DNA of 64,000 nt from Utricularia gibba (lineage: Eukaryota > Streptophyta > Magnoliopsida > Lamiales > Lentibulariaceae): contig NEEC01000007.1 in assembly GCA_002189035.1 (NCBI GenBank), positions 1,922,001-1,986,000 on the forward strand, given 5' to 3'. The notes beneath the pieces are model-generated. The model worked only from the letters and a program-made list of their open reading frames with translations, had not been told where the DNA came from and did not search any database. The position numbers were made by a program, and so were the translations under genes. Shown piece by piece: positions 19,358-58,940 of the stretch (position 1 is the first letter of the stretch; every line of letters begins with the position of its first letter).

Positions 19358-20535
19358 CACCTAAAAGATTCAAAGTATTCAAAATGAAGCAAGAAAGTAA
19401 AGCATACAAATAACCTCAACAAATGAAACATCAGTGCTAGGACTCCAACTTCACTTTGATTAACATCTAGAATAGCTCTATAAATCCATTCAATTAGCTC
19501 AAAAAAAAGTCTTTCATGCAACTGGAAGTTAAACACAACACCAACTTCTTGCAATATAATTCACCCAGAGGAATCAAAATATACATTGAAAAGTTAACCT
19601 CATAAGTTCTACTGAAAAATTGCTCCCTACAAAAGTTGGGATCATCCTTGGCAGCATATACACCACCAACTCAAACATATATTTGACTTCTCATAAAGAA
19701 AAACTCACAAATTAGACAACACGAAAATAGATGAGCTAATACGGCTTCAGATTCAATAGACTCCGTGCGGAATAGACACCAGGAAGCTCTTCTTCAACTC
19801 CGGGTCTTCGGCGAGTGACCACAGACTTTTCTTCCTCTCCAGAGCGAAGACCGGTTCCAGAGAAGCGCGTGCTACAGAAAGCTGAGCTCTCCCTCTCTCC
19901 CTCCCTCGTCACTCAGGAATATCATCGGCGTTTCATTACAACCCAAGAAATTCGCATTGGGCTTGATGAACTGGGCCGGATAATTAATGAATAATGGGCC
20001 CACTTCCATTTTTGGTAAAAAAATTAAAAAAAAAAAGTTTTGCACACCATGAGGAAAGGCTTCTCAACTTCGTCAAGCGGTTTAGAACAATAAAACAAAG
20101 AAGCTCGGCTCTATCCATCCAGAACAAGCATCATGAGGAGAAGACTCGCCGGGTTGAGATGGACTTGCAACACAAAAGTTCCCCATTGTAAGAGCTCAAC
20201 TACGCTACCTTGCTTGTTAAGAACTTACAGGGGAGCTACTTGGCCATGGAAGAAGGCAGCCCTCCCCACTGTAACTGCACACATCATCATTTTCTCCCAC
20301 TACATGTGCACAACGAAGTTCAGCCCAGTTTATCAAAGCCTTCTTTCTATACAGCAAGGTGGATGGATCCATAATCAAACTGAAGAACTCATTGGAAAAA
20401 AAAAAGGGTATCTTTCAAACTAAAACGAGCAGGCTGTGGATCAAGGGACCTCTCTACTGACTATGCCCAGATTAAAGGACAAGAACAAAGACATTATTCA
20501 GACTGGAGAGAAGAAAAGTTGTTACCCGATGGAAT
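19358..20535. other. PUB4 leader/promoter and arogenate dehydrogenase 3' flank
   Basis: From 19361 to about 19780 the minus strand reads as a 5' UTR intron of the U-box gene, ending in an acceptor beside the start codon. The GC-richer block 19745-19910, with CTCCCTCTCTCCCTCCCTC, fits its leader exon and core promoter. The stretch 20000-20535 is the likely 3' UTR of the arogenate dehydrogenase. Plus-strand frames here show no known motif. Confidence 0.45.
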
Positions 20536-21674: not shown

Positions 21675-22734
21675 TGGTTGGAGAGGCGGCGAAATAAGGT
21701 TTTCAAAACTAACATAAAGCGAATGGTTCCCCGATTTAGCAAACACCCGACAAGTACAACAGACGCATATCGTATAATATGAATTAAAATAATGCAGTAA
21801 TAATTTTGACAATCTCCTTCGATGTCTCCGATGATGGATTATTTCATTATTTAAAATCTGAAAATACATTATATGAATTAATATTTTTATAAATGGTGGA
21901 GTTTGCTAACGTCATTCAAAGTTATATTTAAATTTCAAATTTACATTATAAGTCTATTAATTTATTTTTTTGTAAATAATTTGATCTCAAATTTATAAAA
22001 TTATATATTTAATTTTTTATATTATCAAAAATAACTATTTTTTATACTAACATTATTATATTAAGATATCATTTTAAGGGAGATATCATTTGATTTACTG
22101 AATTCTAGACATGAATATAAAAGGTTATCATATGAAATTTTGTTAGGTTTTAAATCAGAACCGGTTCACAATAAAATTTTGAAAACTATTTGGATTTTAG
22201 TTGCATGATTTTGACAAATTTATATATTTTTATTATAATTTTCTTTTTTTCAAATAAAAAGTAAGGTTGAAACTGGTATTGGGCCATGAACAATCTCCTA
22301 ATCCAATTACAAGGTGGCCCAACATCAGCCCACGTGCACAATCAAAAGTACTGTATGAAATACCTGTCGTGGGCCCAATGGGTTTCATTTTAATATTTCA
22401 GAATTATTTTTTTTATGTAAATTCACACTGTCATTATCGTACTTTTATTTTTAAATTAATGTGAAATTGTATTCTTTTGTGTTGGCGGCTGGAAATAAAG
22501 TTTAAAGAAGGGTTAATATTATTCTGGCTTTTTAAAGAAAGGTTGCTTTTTTTTAATTATTCTGAATATTATTTTAATTATTTAGTTATTAAGAAAAAAG
22601 GAAGATAATGGCGGTCTAAGTTTTCCTCCGAATTTTCCGAACCCCCAACCTCCATTTTTCTCTCAACTCGGGTGGAAGTTTTGATTTGCGCTGCACTTTT
22701 TTTTTTTTTTTTTTGGTGTGTGACTGGTGCTTCC
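21675..22734. other. Divergent promoter region, arogenate dehydrogenase and bHLH genes
   Basis: About 1.06 kb between two start codons pointing away from each other. The middle (21880-22620) is strongly A/T-rich. GGCCCA-type words occur near 22282, 22318 and 22373. A T-run of about 20 bases (22698-22715) lies 20 nt before the bHLH start. No gene seen. Confidence 0.5.
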
Positions 22735-41924: not shown

Positions 41925-43098
41925 CCATTCTGCTTATAGCATTTGCAGTGTAGCCTTTATTTCCTCTTGATAGCGTTGCTGTCTGCTGTATCAGAATGAG
42001 GCTTTCTAGAGGCCTTGTGCTTTTTTGTAGATTGATTATCAAACGAATCACATTGTAAAGTTTTCATACATTTTGCAGAAAATTGTTCTATTCATGATGT
42101 CAAACCTATGATGTTATTTGTTTTGAATATTAAATTTTAATTTATAAAGTTAATATATGTATTTGTATTTTTAAAAGAGTTAATTAAATATTTAATTTTT
42201 ATAATTTAATGTTTTTTTATTTTTTTTCAATGATAATATTCATTTTTCTTCGTTCTCTTGATAATCTTACTAGTACTTCAATCTATTAATTCATTTCCTT
42301 GTAGTTATAAAATTTATTTACGTAAATTCCGAAAATAAAACGTGAAAACGTTAAAATTTTCTAAATTCATTTCATGTTTTTCGCATGTCACGTGTCCTGC
42401 ACGTGGCTAGCTCTTCTAGAGACAACAATTTTATCCAGTAACCGCGAGGAGATAGAATGAGGTTTGCGGGCATGGAGATGTGATAAGGATTTATAGCCCC
42501 AGCTTTCGTTCTCTGCCATTGGCGAAGTCCGACACAAGGACTGCACTTCACTCGACTTCAAACCCACAAGCCAACTTTCAAGGTTGATTGTTCTTTCCTT
42601 CTCTTGTTTCTTGTTTGTTGTTGCATAGACTCCATTTCGTTTTCCTGGTTTTTGTGTTTCATTCAGCCTATTTTTTGAATGCTCTTGTATTTGGGAGGCC
42701 GTTAGCTCATTGATTCTGATGCTGGGTATTTTCTTTTTTTTTTTAATCTTGTTTCGCCTTGTTCATGCTACTGGGGATGGCCGCATGATGGCATTGGTAC
42801 TTGCTCTTGGTTAACGATTGCTTGTCTGGAACACATAATATTAGAAGAATGTTCCCTTTATTTAATGAAGTTGGAAGAACACTTGATTAAGGGAATTTTT
42901 TGGTAGAGTATGCTAGGAGAATTTGATTGTGAAATACAGCTGAATATCATGGTCTTACCAATTTCTAGTCATTTCTTGTCGTTTTCTGTGTTGTTCTTTC
43001 TGGTGTTCTGTGTTTTTCTAGCTATCCCTCCTTTGATTATACCTGTTCTTCAGGTGGTCGGATGTATTGAGCACTTCAGTTGATGCACCGAACTTCAC
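41925..43098. other. Intergenic region and PETs 5' leader intron
   Basis: MED7 3' flank, A/T-rich spacer (42110-42380), then the PETs promoter and leader. A donor TCAAG|GTTGAT at 42582/42583 and acceptor TTCTTCAG at 43053 define a likely 471-nt 5' UTR intron, ending 45 nt before the start codon. No other gene. Confidence 0.5.
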
Positions 43099-46000
43099 AT
43101 GGCTCATACAATCCCAAATTCGACAGGGAACTTGTCTTCTCCTGGAGTTCCCTCTCTTACCAAGAACAACAACTTCCTATTGCGATACAACTTTACTTGC
43201 AAACTTCACAGGAAATTATTGCCTGCAGAAAGATTCAGACTGCCATTGTCTACTTCTCTTAAATTGTTTCCCCAGTTTCAGTCTGGATATATTTTACAGC
43301 CTAGGCGACAAATTTATAAGGAATTTGCTAGTGGGACTGATGTTGCTTTAGAGGAGGTAGAGGTCGAACAAGCCGATGTTGAAACTGAAAATGGTACAGA
43401 ATCAACGGGAGAAACATCTGAAAAACCAAAGGTTAACACGCCTAGTGTTAAACGTTCAAAAACTGTGAGGAAGAGCGATATGCCTCCGGTAAAGAATGAG
43501 GATCTTGTTCCTGGAGCTACTTTTAGTGGAAAAGTTAGATCCATCCAACCATTTGGTGCATTTGTAGACTTCGGAGCATTTACAGATGGGCTGGTACATG
43601 TTTCTCAGTTGAGCAACAGCTTTGTTAAAGATGTTGCTAATGTTGTTACTGTTGGACAAGAGGTGAAGGTAAGGCTATTAGAGGCTAACATGGATACTCG
43701 CCGAATTTCGTTAACCATGCGGGAGAATGATGATTCCAACAAACAGCAGCAACAAAGGAGTACTCCAGTGAATGGTGATAAATCCAGACCTCCCAGAAAG
43801 ACAGGTCCTAGAAGTACTCAGAAAAAAGAAGAAGTGAAGAAAGTCTCTAAGTTTGTTAAAGGGCAAGACCTTTTGGGAACTGTTAAGAATCTCACAAGGG
43901 CTGGTGCATTCATTTCTCTACCTGAAGGGGAGGAAGGTTTTCTGCCTACATCAGAGGAGGCAGATGAAGGATTCATGAGGATGACCATGGGTGGGTCTTC
44001 TCTTGAGATAGACCAAGAAGTTAATGTTCGTGTATTGCGTATCACAAGAGGGCAGATTACACTGACAATGAAAAAAGAGGAAGATGCTGCATATTTGGAT
44101 TCCAATCTCAATCAAGGTGTGGTGCATAAAGCAACTAATCCCTTTGCATTGGCATTCCGTAGTAACAAAGAAATCTCGTCATTCCTTGATGAAAGAAAAA
44201 AGAGTGATGAACCACATGAAGATGCCTCGAAGGAAGAAGAGTTAGCTTTGCAATCTGCAGACCTCCAAAGTGATAATGCCAACTTAAAAATTTCCGAAGG
44301 GGAGAGACAGCAGATGAAGTGGTGACTGGTGAGATAAGTTTAATAGATGGAACTTCTATAGCTGTAGATCCTAATCAAAATGATGAAACGGAAGTGGGGG
44401 AAACTGGCATTTCTATTGATGGATTCTTGTCACCAGAGACTGTCGTAGAGTCTACAGATGAGGTATCTTCTGATGCAACATCAACTGATAAAGAACAGGT
44501 AAATGAGGAACCTGCCCAATCAGAAGTAGAGGAAGAGGTAGGAGCCGATATATCAGCCCAAACCACCTTGACACCTGATATTTCTGGAGAGGGCATTGAA
44601 GTGGCTGCTCATGATTTATTATCTAAAATTGATGAAAACAATCAGGAGCTCGATTCAAAAGCTTCTTCAGAGAAGGAAGTTGCTTCTGACTCAGTCGAGG
44701 ATTCTTCCTTGGTCAATACTGAAAATGAAACTCTACCTGAGCCTCTAGTCTCTGAGACTGATGAGAAAGCTGTAGAGTTGAAGGTTGAAGATCAAAATGA
44801 GACTATTGAAAATTCATCTGATGCAATCCTTTCCACATCTTCTGATCTCAAGGAAGGTAATGCTGCAAACCCAACAATTGACCCCAGAATTTGTTTTTCA
44901 CATTTCTTCTTAGTAGTGTATGCCATCTATTCGAAATAAATGCAACTGGATTGTGTAAGTTTTTTTCAATTTCTGTGATCCCATGCATTGAAAACGACTG
45001 AAACTTTTGCAGAAAGTTCAGCTGATGGAGAAGTGACTGTTAGTGGTGTGTTAGAAAGCACAGAGCAGGCTGAAACAGTTACTGCCGATGTTCCTGAAGC
45101 AACACAAAAAGGTGTTTTTGTTTATATATTTCTATGCTTATTTGTTCGTGAAGTATGCCAGTATTTGTTTATAAAAATGAATGTGCAGTTTTCATCCTGA
45201 AACAGAATTGTTTTCTCTGTATTCTGTCTGAAGATTTCTAAATCATAGCATCCTTGCTTGCAGCTGCTGCTAGTTCTATATCACCAGCTCTTGTGAAACA
45301 GTTGCGCGAGGAAACTGGAGCAGGAATGATGGATTGTAAGAAAGCTCTATCAGAAACTGGAGGAGACATAGTTAAAGCTCAAGAGTACCTTCGTAAAAAG
45401 GGTTTAGCTAGTGCTGATAAGAAGGCCAGTAGGGCCACTGCTGAAGGAAGAATTGGCTCCTACATTCATGATAGCAGGATAGGTGTCCTTATCGAAGTTA
45501 ACTGTGAGACGGATTTTGTCTCTCGTGGTGATATCTTTAAGGAGCTTGCCGAAGACCTCGCCATGCAAGTTGCTGCATGCCCACAGGTTGAATATGTTAA
45601 CGTTGAAGATATTCCTGCAGAGATTGTTGAGAAAGAGAGGGAAATAGAAATGCAGAAGGAAGATCTTTTGTCAAAGCCCGAGCAGATACGATCAAAAATT
45701 GTTGATGGGCGTATCAGCAAGAGGCTGGGAGAGCTGGCTCTACTGGAACAGCCCTTCATTAAAGATGACAAGGTTTTGGTTAAAGACTGGGTAAAGCAGA
45801 CCATTTCGACCATTGGTGAGAACATGAAAGTCAAGAGATTCGTGCGGTACAACCTCGGTGAAGGTTTGGAGAAGAAGAAGGTTGATTTTGCAGCTGAGGT
45901 TGCTGCTCAAACTGCTGCTACAACAGTTCCCGCAGCACTTGTGAAACAAGACCCTGCACCTACAGAAACCACCGCAGCTATCGAAAGGTAACCCCACTGT

Positions 46001-46737
46001 AATTTTAAGCATAGAATAAGTGCAGAACTGATTCACCTCTTTTCTGTGTTGCTTGGTTGCTCTGTGTTGGCTTTCGCTCTCAATCATTCTAACATTGTTG
46101 TTGGCCCTTTTACAGCCCTGAAAAGGTTACAGTTTCCGCTGCTTTAGTTAAACAACTGCGAGAAGAAACCGGAGCAGGAATGATGGACTGCAAGAAAGCT
46201 CTTTCTGAAAGCGGAGGTGATTTCGAGAAGGCGCAGGAGTACCTCAGGAAAAAGGGTCTTTCCGCTGCTGACAAAAAGTCAAGCCGAATAGCTGCTGAAG
46301 GAAGAATCGGCTCCTACATTCATGACTCCCGGATTGGTGTTCTACTCGAAGTCAACTGTGAAACCGATTTTGTGGGTAGAAGTCAATCTTTCAAAGAACT
46401 TGTGGACGATCTCGCAATGCAAGCGGTGGCGTGCCCCCAAGTGCAGTATGTCTCCATTGAAGACATCCCTCAAAGCATTGTTGACAAAGAAAAGCAGCTG
46501 GAGATGCAGAGAGAAGATCTCCAGTCCAAGCCTGAGAACATACGAGAAAAGATTGTTGAAGGAAGAATAACCAAGAGGCTTGCAGAGCTTGCTCTCCTAG
46601 AGCAGCCTTTCATCAAGAATGATAGCCTTCTTGTGAAGGACTTGGTGAAGCAAACCGTTGCTGCTCTTGGAGAAAACATAAAAGTCCGGCGGTTCGCGCG
46701 GTTCACCCTCGGCGAGACGGCGAGAGCAGAAGCCTGA
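43099..46737 (+). CDS. PETs: Plastid S1-domain/EF-Ts polyprotein (PETs), with one frame break
   Basis: Exons 43099-44856, 45013-45111, 45264-45987, 46116-46737. Domain order: transit peptide; two S1 RNA-binding domains near residues 134-205 ([20 protein letters not shown]) and 251-320 ([20 protein letters not shown]); a long acidic linker; two EF-Ts units in tandem, each with the UBA-like start ([20 protein letters not shown]) and the EF-Tu contact TDFV ([20 protein letters not shown]). This is the layout of Arabidopsis At4g29060 and algal PETs, where EF-Ts and the ribosome protein PSRP-7 are both produced from one gene. EF-Ts recycles EF-Tu in plastid translation. At about 44302-44308 the frame shifts: the first frame stops at 44325, while the linker and both EF-Ts units lie in the adjacent frame. 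Adding one base there gives 1067 residues. A polyadenylation-type AATAAA lies at 46851. Confidence 0.88.
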
Positions 46738-47806
46738 GAAGCCATCGGGCAGTAGCAAATGGCGGCTCATGATGCAACAGGCAAGCGTTTAGAACTGAGT
46801 TGACACTGCACTGTATTCTTTTTGGAATGGTTCTAAATTTTCGAACGCGGAATAAAGTTGTCATCTTTACTTCACAAATGGAAGACGAGCGACTCCAATC
46901 TTCAACTGCTAACCTCACTCAGGTCGACCGGAGGACGACGTCGAGCTGAGCACGGCCTTTGCCTTCATCGATTTTCCGCTTTTCGAATCTGGTTTCAAGA
47001 TGGCGCCGTTAAATCTGGCGGACGTGAGGCGGGTAATTGTGTCCGGAATCCCCTGGTTTTGGGTCCAGAGCAATCTCTGGCCTGGGGAAGAACAGCAGCA
47101 CGCGTCTCTTTCCTTTCGATACCCTGGCGTCGGTAATTCCTTGTTTTTGCTGGCGTTTTTTGTCACGAGTTTTCTGGGATTCAATGGGGCGTTTCTTCCG
47201 AGGCTGAAGGGCTGCCGCCGAAGCAATATCGGCGGCGATGACGGAGATCCTTAACAAACCATCTCTGAAATTCTGGTACTCCTTGAGGCTGTTAATCAGC
47301 CCGTTTCATTCTTGGATCAATGGTTTTGTGGGTTTCATCTAGAACGCCATGTCTCGAGAATCAAACTTACCCAAATTCAAAACTGAAGTTTAAAACTTCT
47401 TCTCAGGTGAACGTCGTTCTTGCTTTCGATATTGGAATCATTCGCATGGAACGACGCTGGCTCAGTCGTTCTGAATTGCAGGAGCACCATCCTCCTCTAC
47501 TGCAACATGAAGTTCCAAGCTTTCAGGCCTCTAATGGTGTTCTGTGCTTTCTCTTCGATTTCGAAAACCGTTACAAAACTGTTCTTTGAAATCATGGGGG
47601 AAAAAAAAAAAAGATCAAATTCCGCGCGAGTAGCAGCCAGCGCGTTACGCCAACTTTTCTTTCCTTTTTCTGCCCTTGGATCACAGAAAGATTCTGGTTT
47701 TGGGCCTGTCCGAATACATGCGTGTGGGCGTACTCCTGGGCCCACGCTAATGCCAGGCCCATGGGCCGGATGTACTGGCATTGATTCCCACCACTCATTT
47801 TTTTGT
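46738..47806. other. Intergenic region with unresolved exon-like frames
   Basis: After the PETs 3' UTR, a GC-rich frame at 47000-47137 begins ATGGCGCCGTTAAATCTGGC and meets a possible donor (GTCG|GTAATT). A second frame after TTCTCAG|GTGAACG (47407-47589) could be a following exon. I recognise no domain in either, and joining them at those sites leads to an early stop, so they are not called as a gene. The interval also holds GGGCCC/TGGGCC words nearer 47700-47770 that belong to the next promoter. Confidence 0.35.
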
Positions 47807-47868
47807 TATATAAGCCTCTGTTTTGATTTTCTCATTTCTCATTTCTCTGGAATCGAGAACTAGGGTTT
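47701..47868 (+). promoter_or_regulatory. Promoter with site II motifs, TATA box and telo-box
   Basis: TGGGCC/GGCCCA-type site II words cluster at about 47701-47766, a TATA box (TATATAAG) lies at 47807-47814, and a telo-box word TAGGGTTT lies at 47861-47868, about 45 nt before the start codon. Site II plus telo-box is a known plant promoter combination for ribosomal-protein and mitochondrial respiratory genes. That the motifs act here is inference. Confidence 0.65.
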
Positions 47869-47913
47869 CCTACGGTCTTCGCCGATCGTTTCAGATCCCT
47901 CCCGGTTCGGAAA

Positions 47914-48774
47914 ATGGCTAGTGGCGGTAACTTTATTAACAGAGTGATCTCCTACCTTGCGAACGAGCTCATCGTGAATGGGCTTTCCAACAAGTAATTT
48001 ATTTCTCATTGCTTCTAGTTTTGACAATGTTTTTGCGGTGCCGACCTAATTTGATGTCGCTGGAGTATGTGTGCGTTATGGCCGATGATGACTACCGTAG
48101 GCTTGTAATGATAGCATGGATGATGACGCATTTTTTATCGGTCTGAGGCTTATTCGTGAGGGCGTCACGTGCTTGTTTTTTGGGTGTTAGTGTTACTATT
48201 TTGTATGGATTTATCTTGAGGTTTGTTTAGTGTATCATATGACCTGGTTTGTGGTGGATTTTGTCGATGGATAATAGCACCCCATATATAAACAGTTTTT
48301 TTGTCTTGTTCCTAGCCCAAGATTTCAGGTTTTTGCCGTGAGGACTGCAAAGAGGCTGGAGGAACTTTCTAATTTGGGTATCTAGAAGCGTTTCCCGTTT
48401 GTCTGTAGTGCTATGTTCTCTTGATTGAGTTCTTACCTCTTTTTTATGCAGCTGCTGAGAAGAAAAAAGCACTCGCTGAGCAATTGAAGGATGCTTCTAA
48501 GAACTTTGAGGTGAGTGTCCATTATATCCAATGCGAATAAGCCATGCAACGAAACACTCTATGATGGTGCTATATGAACTCTCCACAAGGCCTGTCTTTT
48601 ATAATTGAAACCAAAAGCCATCTCCGCCCAAAAAAGGGCCAGATATGCACTCCGTCTACTTTTCGTTCCAAGAAAATGCACCACCACATCACTCATGCTT
48701 GTGTCTTGATTTTATCATATATAGTGATTACCAAGTTTGCAATTTGAATTTTGCAGTCATTCAAGAACCAGTGA
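47914..48774 (+). CDS. Conserved-looking 72-residue protein of unknown function
   Basis: Built by hand from four small exons: 47914-47993, 48316-48377, 48452-48510, 48757-48774. They total 219 nt in frame. All three introns have good borders (CAACAA|GTAATT...CCTAG, TTGG|GTATCT...ATGCAG, GAG|GTGAGT...TTGCAG). The protein starts ASGGNFINRVISYLANELIV, continues through PRFQVFAVRTAKRLEELSNL and AAEKKKALAEQLKDASKNFE, and ends in SFKNQ. It has an amphipathic or weakly hydrophobic N-terminal helix and a charged C-terminal helix, with no signal peptide. I believe similar small proteins exist in other plants but cannot name a function. Its promoter carries site II, TATA and telo-box elements, which suggests a housekeeping mitochondrial or ribosomal role (inference). 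No single exon is long enough to be noticed as an open frame of 60 codons. Confidence 0.75.
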
Positions 48775-49928
48775 TGCTTGCCAGGCAGTCCTTCTCTTTG
48801 TTGTACAGTGGTTTGTATTTTGACTTAGATAAGGTGACAGGTTGAGCTCCATGATTGTACTCGTGTTTGTGAGCCTATATCATCCGCAGACAAACATACA
48901 CTCATGTCATCTTGTTTCCTTCTGAACAGTATAACCAAATAATTGTTCATCTTCCAGCAAGCAAATCATCTGTTGAGTTTTTTTTTCCTTGGAGCATGAT
49001 CATCATCTATCATGTATCACCGCGTCGTAGGCTAACACGATCATGACTGCACTTCAACTTACGGAAACAGCTGGACATGTTTACTGAATTCCCCTACGTA
49101 TGCTTCATCACTTCATTGTGCCATACTGTCCGTGTTCTGCTGGAGCAGGTTCATGCTCGATTATCCTGCTGGGTTCGCCACCTGATGCCCATGGAATCAA
49201 GCATCGTGAGCCATCCAAGTGTTTATTTTCTTTCTTTCAAGGAAGCGGCCACGTTGAGTATTTGGTGCCTGGCATCCGACTCTTGTTGCTGAAGTATTTT
49301 AGGTAGCTTACCAGTTATTTTGGCGATGAGAATTTAATATGCGATGCTTTATTCGGATAGGGGTGCTCGTTAGGAAGAAGGTTCCATATGATGCGTACTG
49401 CTACGCGCTTTCACAACCATGTTTTTAAAAAATGAATAGTTATTTAATTTTATTTCTAAAAAATATTTTTTTTATCAAAATTAATAATTAAATTATTATA
49501 ATTATGAAAATTAGCCATGAAAAATAAATGGCTTCGGGTAAACGCGCAATGGTCGTAATGCATTTATTTATGAAAATTTAATGTAATACAGAAATATAAA
49601 TTAAGGTTATGAATGATTATGTTTCTTAAAAAGTTATTTATTTTTAACATTTTTCAAAAATAATAAATGTTTTTAAATTATAATTTTTTAAGTTAATATC
49701 CGACGTGGATTAAAAAAGGAAGGGAATACATAAGCGAATGTTTTTGTTCTCCTGTGCTACGTCACTCTTATCCGTAGAATTAAATAAAAAGTGCCCTGCC
49801 CTCCCCCCCCCCCCCCCCCCCCCAGTCGCCATCCTAATCACCACTGGGGTTTATTGGCATCCGGCAGCCCATCTCCTGTCCTGCCCCTGCCGACGCAGAC
49901 GACGTTTCCCTCCCTACTCTCTCACGCC
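48775..49928. other. Intergenic region and AMP deaminase promoter
   Basis: 3' UTR of the small gene, then A/T-rich DNA (49420-49720), then a C-run of 21 bases at 49803-49823 and about 105 nt of GC-rich leader before the AMP deaminase start. Plus-strand frames around 49077-49306 show no motif. Confidence 0.5.
49803..49823. repeat. Poly-C tract of 21 bases
   Basis: Uninterrupted C-run on the plus strand in the AMP deaminase leader or core promoter, about 105 nt before the start codon. Such tracts can form G-quadruplex/i-motif structures and are prone to length error in sequencing. Confidence 0.9.
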
Positions 49929-57594: not shown

Positions 57595-58940
57595 CTTCTC
57601 CCCTCCTAGATCCGATGAAAAGTCCGCCCTTAGTGCCTAGGAGACCGGTGGAGAAGCACTTTAATGGACAAAAAAGAAAGTGCGTCGTCGATGGTGGCCG
57701 GTGGGAGAAGGAGGCGACAAGGAAAAGTTTTCGTCACAAGGCCCGACCACTAACAAGATTTTTATTCTCTTCATCGCTAATTGTGTACGGACACCATACA
57801 TTTCATATTCATCCAATGTGTTAAAAAACGATTAAACTGGTTTTAATCCAATCATATATATTATAAAATTAAAAATTAAAAAATATATCGAAATTCAATC
57901 TTAATCCACTCTAATTTTAAGTAAAATTCATGATTTTAAAGTATTCAATAAAGCAGCAATACAAATCTAAAAAAATTAAAATATTGAATTAAAGAGTAAA
58001 AAATAGGGGGATAACCATACAATTGGAATTCAATTGAAGTTGTATTATAAATTTGAGCATACTCTTATCATTATGTGAAAAAAAATGGTCATTTATAATA
58101 TAAAATTTTTAATTTAACATGTGATAAATAGTGTATGGATAGAAAATCTTCTGAATGACCCGTACAATTGGCCCCCTTTAGTCTCCCCCTTCGATTTTCT
58201 GAAGAATTTGTATTAGAAAAAAATGCTTTTGACAAATAGATCGACATTAAACTAAGTTATTTTATTGTACTATTTTTTCTTTTTTTCTTTTTTATGTTAA
58301 TGTGGGTCCCGCTCCCCTGGAACGCGTTCCATGGTGGGCGACTTTGCGGTCAATGTTGCCGGCTCTCTATTTATTTATTAATTTATTTCTTTAATGTATA
58401 GGAAAGTATATTGAATATTATTATTCCTGAGGCCCACGGGAAGACTGATGGGCTATTGAAATTGGATCTCATGCTCATACCCAGTCTGGAGTTGGGCCAC
58501 AAAATTTGAAAATGGGCCTGAAATATGAAATTAGGCTCAAGAATCTACGTTGTTGCTTTGCTACTAATTGATAAAAAAAAATGAAATTTTAATCCAAGAT
58601 TTATCGTTTGCATATTGAAAATTAAATTGAATACATGATTGGGAGTGATTTAAAAATGAAAATAAAAAGGAAATTCCACTCTACAAATTGCTAAATAAAT
58701 TGATAAATATTCATTATCAATCAGATAAGGGGAGACCTGTGCCACAAGTAACGCTTTCATTGTGGAAAAAAACACAAACGCGCTGAGGTGAGTCGTTGAC
58801 GTTTTCTTGGAGATGAGGATAGGGAAAGCAACCCTTCTCCCACTCCGAGTAGCTAGCTACGTGCTTATGTATCTGATTCCGTTGGTGAATTTTCTAGGAA
58901 ACTTCGCCTCTGGTTAACACGGTTTTGGAGCTACAAATAG
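57595..58940. other. AMT2 promoter and A/T-rich intergenic DNA
   Basis: Transporter promoter and leader (57595-57780), then strongly A/T-rich DNA, with one copy of a dispersed repeat at 58454-58546 and a GC-richer piece at 58300-58345. No gene seen. Confidence 0.5.
58454..58546. repeat. Dispersed direct repeat, copy 1
   Basis: About 93 bp, with TATTGAAATTGGATCTCAT at one end, GGAGTTGGGCCAC in the middle and GGCTCAAGAATCT at the other end. A second copy of about 90 bp in the same orientation lies at 63911-64000. They agree at roughly 85 percent of positions by eye. Confidence 0.9.

Follow-up and report, generated by a model that had tools for sequence, protein, structure and literature searches.

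The combination of a telo-box and site II words in a promoter marks genes for ribosomal proteins, rRNA processing and small nucleolar RNAs (snoRNAs) in Arabidopsis and rice (PMC3022908, PMC4660826), and the association of the two words is conserved in the promoters of genes that carry snoRNAs in their introns (PMC3022908). Promoters of this class (TeloSII) contain a telo-box (AAACCCTA or its permutations) in the 5' flank or the 5' untranslated region (UTR) together with at least two site II words, and the published positions upstream of the ATG are 0 to 280 bp for the telo-box and 80 to 400 bp for site II (PMC3022908). In Arabidopsis, 17.9% of the genes that have a telo-box together with two or more site II words are ribosome-associated, against 2% of all genes (PMC3022908); with a share of only 17.9%, the function of a gene does not follow from its promoter class. 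Site II elements are also enriched in the promoters of mitochondrial oxidative phosphorylation (OXPHOS) genes (PMC5877523), and telo-boxes are found in 84% of class 1 mitoribosomal promoters (PMC3229498).

The locus described here lies in a window of 64,000 nucleotides from Utricularia gibba (the whole stretch of DNA that was analysed), where a TeloSII-type promoter precedes a four-exon gene whose spliced product is a protein of 72 aa, MASGGNFINRVISYLANELIVNGLSNNPRFQVFAVRTAKRLEELSNLAAEKKKALAEQLKDASKNFESFKNQ (Table 1). We read it as a gene of the growth programme that encodes a small helical accessory protein and possibly carries a C/D-box snoRNA in its first intron, and assign a probability of about 0.5 to this reading as a whole. 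Its parts differ in strength. The locus is very probably a real protein gene, and an ordinary small plant gene with a 72-residue product. An earlier, sequence-only reading of this DNA had placed the gene with its promoter at 47701-48774, and these coordinates were borne out: the first site II word is at 47701, the ATG at 47914 and the end of the stop codon at 48774. The four exons also join cleanly into 72 aa, as it had stated; its description of them as tiny fails for the last exon, in which the 18 nt are the coding part only and a 3' UTR follows.

Table 1. Features of the locus, in positions of the window
Feature	Position	Strand	Details
Five site II words (TGGGCC or GGCCCA)	47701..47767	+	67 bp, -213 to -152 from ATG
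TATA box	47807..47814	+	TATATAAG
Telo-box	47861..47868	+	TAGGGTTT; -53 from ATG, probably in 5' UTR; sole exact telo-box of the window
Exon 1, coding part	47914..47993	+	MASGGNFINRVISYLANELIVNGLSN plus two bases of the following codon
Intron 1	47994..48315	+	322 nt, GTAATT...TTCCTAG
Candidate C/D-box snoRNA	about 48079-48154	+	C ATGATGA 48085, C' ATGATGA 48120, D CTGA 48143-48146, terminal stem GGCC/GGCT
Candidate guides			GACGCATTTTTTATCGGT before D; CTACCGTAGGCTTGTAATGATAGC before C'
Exon 2	48316..48377	+	(N)PRFQVFAVRTAKRLEELSNL
Exon 3	48452..48510	+	(A)AEKKKALAEQLKDASKNFE
Exon 4, coding part	48757..48774	+	SFKNQ then stop; exon runs on as 3' UTR

The coding parts of the exons measure 80, 62, 59 and 18 nt and the introns 322, 74 and 246 nt, all three of the latter with GT-AG borders. 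The same four-exon chain was the optimum, at 24.7 bits, of an independent exon chainer that applied dynamic programming to positions 47801-49300 with rough plant splice-site frequencies entered from general knowledge; none of 300 dinucleotide shuffles reached this score (mean 6.2, maximum 18.8 bits). The best antisense chain (47860-48852, minus strand) scored 19.9 bits, not far under the sense chain, and is probably a mirror of the coding frame. Thus, the chain score alone does not fix the strand, which is set as sense by the promoter, the start context (gaaaATGGC) and the sense frame. Under a codon model trained on the neighbouring genes, the frame of the gene scored +27.7 bits, against -28 and -35 in the two alternative forward frames; random codons free of stops averaged -15 bits (SD 6.8), and none of 20,000 such sets attained +27.7. 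Judged by a rough plant consensus, the acceptor of intron 1 (TTCCTAG/C, -1.1 bits) and the donor of intron 2 (GTATCT, -0.5 bits) are weak, and the other four of the six splice sites are good. An alternative acceptor for intron 1 at 48329, 13 nt downstream of 48316, scores better, and its use would leave only 30 aa. No second copy of the gene, whole or in part, was found in its own genome (100 Mb, 516 contigs) beyond its own exons.

The site II/telo-box promoter claimed by the sequence-only reading is genuine. Its telo-box TAGGGTTT falls within the 5' flank or 5' UTR, and five site II words stand where the class has at least two; a cluster of five such words in 75 bp occurs once in the window and in none of 60 window shuffles. 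Across the genome, the pattern TGGGCC-N70-100-TAGGGTTT occurs 75 times, against 17 for a reversed-pattern control (4.4-fold), so that about three quarters of the module sites exceed chance. For 16 of the 75 sites, a small sample, the top-scoring reading frames that follow were scanned with Pfam; the matched genes comprise 60S P0 (Ribosomal_L10), RPS13 (Ribosomal_S15 with its N-terminal domain), a PRP21-like/Surp splicing factor, a PPR protein, a squalene/phytoene synthase, a Myb and an A20/AN1 zinc-finger protein. Within this small sample, the flavour is one of growth and translation rather than mitochondrial. The gene therefore resembles plant TeloSII genes in having both words, repeated site II words, a telo-box closer to the ATG, a TATA box and positions within the published ranges, and it differs from them in that the encoded protein is no ribosomal protein or known rRNA-processing factor in the searches made. 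It probably belongs to the growth/translation regulon.

The predicted protein has a mass of 8.0 kDa and a pI of 9.8, and is basic and mostly helix-prone; its earlier description as a two-helix protein derives from helix propensity alone. Residues 1-18 have a net charge of 0 and a fair amphipathic moment (0.49), with an acidic residue at position 18, and neither a clear mitochondrial presequence nor a membrane span was seen in the 72 aa. Searches of Pfam and NCBIfam returned no match, in agreement with the earlier statement that no known domain is present. No relative was found among prokaryotic genomes, viral contigs and plasmids; as the collections include no plant genome besides its own, little follows from this lack of relatives. 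No solved chain in the PDB matches the protein by sequence better than E 0.39, and a literature text search for its peptide fragments returned nothing relevant.

The part of the locus most worth following up is a candidate C/D-box snoRNA in intron 1, which the sequence-only reading had not seen. A C box (RUGAUGA) at 48085 and a D box (CUGA) at 48143 are enclosed by a 4-bp terminal stem with one G-U pair in the layout GGCCG-ATGATGA-...-ATGATGA-...-CTGA-GGCT (48079-48154), and the guide before the D box is U-rich. Among 20,000 shuffled introns, C, D, a stem of at least 4 and a C' of at least 6 come together in 20; as the signature had been spotted before it was tested, this significance is inflated. 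The version of the signature that has a perfect C' box occurs once in the window and not at all in 229 kb of strands taken from elsewhere in the genome. In a focused Rfam search, eight of the 10 listed matches were to C/D snoRNA families, all at the same place and on the same strand, and every one of them scored below its gathering score (best, 19.3 bits versus 46). A new or orphan snoRNA need not pass a curated Rfam threshold. Scanning the window at the curated thresholds of Rfam found no RNA, and in a whole-window Rfam search the candidate drops off the list; only the focused search and the box pattern set it apart. Two control stretches of the same length as the focused one (1.4 kb) gave two snoRNA-type matches apiece, with no convergence on one strand and site. 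A second copy of the candidate was not found in the genome, and its guides paired with 18S rRNA no better than shuffled guides did over the 408 nt of 18S that are readable, the adjoining rDNA being half N. The candidate is like the intronic C/D-box snoRNAs of plants, for example those in introns of rice ribosomal-protein genes, in its C, C' and D boxes, its short terminal stem, its place in a sense-strand intron and its TeloSII host, whereas it exceeds no Rfam threshold and is present in single copy. These features suggest that it may be a real snoRNA, although we hold this to be somewhat less than probable.

The sequence-only reading had proposed that the protein could be a minor subunit of a mitochondrial complex. 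A specifically mitochondrial role is unsupported, as the telo-box with site II marks ribosomal, rRNA-processing and snoRNA genes, the genes behind the module in this genome form no mitochondrial set, and no solved chain was matched. In its fullest form, the proposal would have a minor subunit or assembly factor that enters the organelle with no classical presequence and is anchored on the matrix side through an amphipathic N-terminal helix. Many small mitochondrial subunits lack a presequence, and the amphipathic moment over residues 1-18 would suit such a helix; the zero net charge of this segment, its acidic residue 18 and the missing membrane span argue against it. The promoter words point both ways. 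Besides the published occurrence of site II in OXPHOS promoters and of telo-boxes in mitoribosomal ones, the QCR9 gene of the same genome (exon on contig C412, 2273515-2273595, minus strand) is preceded by three site II words, at -169 to -128, a distance similar to that of the cluster studied here, but a telo-box is absent upstream of it. That gene also supplied a control for the structural search: a 41-aa exon of QCR9 found chains of plant complex III (4e-14) in entries 7jrg, 7jrp, 8e73, 8bel, 8bpx, 8bq5 and 8bq6. Several of these entries we take to be plant supercomplexes that also contain complex I or IV; with such entries searchable, any subunit modelled in those assemblies should have come up. 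Recognition of the control, with the 72-aa protein unmatched, makes a mitochondrial role less likely. Small plant respiratory subunits such as QCR9 (72 aa) and the unplaced complex I candidate P3 (At5g14105) are in a similar size range, and the site II promoter is alike in the case compared (QCR9), whereas the protein studied here matches no solved subunit and has no membrane span. On this balance, we consider placement in a mitochondrial complex unlikely.

Two further explanations bear on what is selected at the locus. If the locus served chiefly to host a snoRNA, selection would act on the C/D RNA of the intron, and the spliced mRNA, whether or not it also yields its small protein, would be a carrier; the C/D signature in intron 1 is consistent with this, as are the promoter words, which are typical of plant snoRNA loci, including intronic ones (PMC3022908, PMC4660826). 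We nevertheless find this account improbable, because the strong in-frame codon bias over all 72 aa points to present or recent selection on the protein, and because the candidate lies below the Rfam thresholds and its guides match the 408 nt of readable 18S no better than chance. A chain of exons that arose by chance in non-coding DNA, or a gene that is decaying or has recently emerged de novo, would agree with the absence of relatives in the searched collections, the weak splice sites at two of the three introns and the broken gene copy directly upstream. Against such an origin stand the chain score, which none of the 300 shuffles reached, and a promoter module in register with the ATG, and we regard it as highly improbable.

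The growth-programme reading is favoured because of the optimal exon chain, the codon score, the promoter positions, the genome-wide excess of the module, the genes behind that module and the C/D signature; the two weak splice sites, the better acceptor at 48329, the antisense chain of 19.9 bits, the sub-threshold snoRNA and the figure of 17.9% count against it. According to this growth-programme reading, a single-copy, four-exon nuclear gene would encode a basic, largely helical and soluble protein of 72 aa and 8.0 kDa. Its TATA-containing site II/telo-box promoter, with the site II words presumably read by TCP-type factors, would switch the gene on with the growth/translation programme, alongside ribosomal and rRNA-processing genes. 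The product would most likely be a small accessory protein whose amphipathic helices dock on a larger partner, and ribosome biogenesis or translation would be a likelier site of action than a respiratory complex; we assign the protein to ribosome biogenesis or translation tentatively, as a possibility short of probable. Intron 1 would possibly release a C/D-box snoRNA during splicing of the pre-mRNA. A more specific version, which we judge rather unlikely, is a two-product gene in which one ribosome-type promoter drives both a plant microprotein not described before and, from the first intron, an orphan C/D-box snoRNA, and where the choice between the productive acceptor at 48316 and the truncating one at 48329 might uncouple the yield of snoRNA from that of protein.

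Plant annotation easily misses small multi-exon genes as well as intronic snoRNAs. If the snoRNA is real, a single transcript would tie an uncharacterised microprotein to the ribosome-making programme, and the promoter words could be used to find more such loci in a compact genome, as has been done in Arabidopsis. If it is not, the locus is one more ordinary small housekeeping gene.

Upstream of the locus, at 43084-46737 (plus strand), two S1 and two EF-Ts domains in one gene region form an arrangement of the chloroplast type (plastid polyprotein). Between this region and the promoter, from 46915 to about 47530 (plus strand), lies a broken, 3'-truncated copy of a CCDC90-like gene (PF07798, mitochondrial coiled-coil); an intact relative is present on another contig (C244, about 2058219-2059673). 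Origin of the 72-aa gene from the broken copy was considered and rejected, as the two proteins are dissimilar and no relic of the 72-aa protein lies beside the intact CCDC90-like gene. Downstream, from about 49929, there is what we take to be an AMP-deaminase-like gene, recognised by eye from its translation and not by a profile, and beyond it an ammonium transporter on the minus strand. Other clusters of at least four site II words in the window, at 19958-19997, 22280-22372 and 58431-58513, are probably promoters of neighbouring genes.
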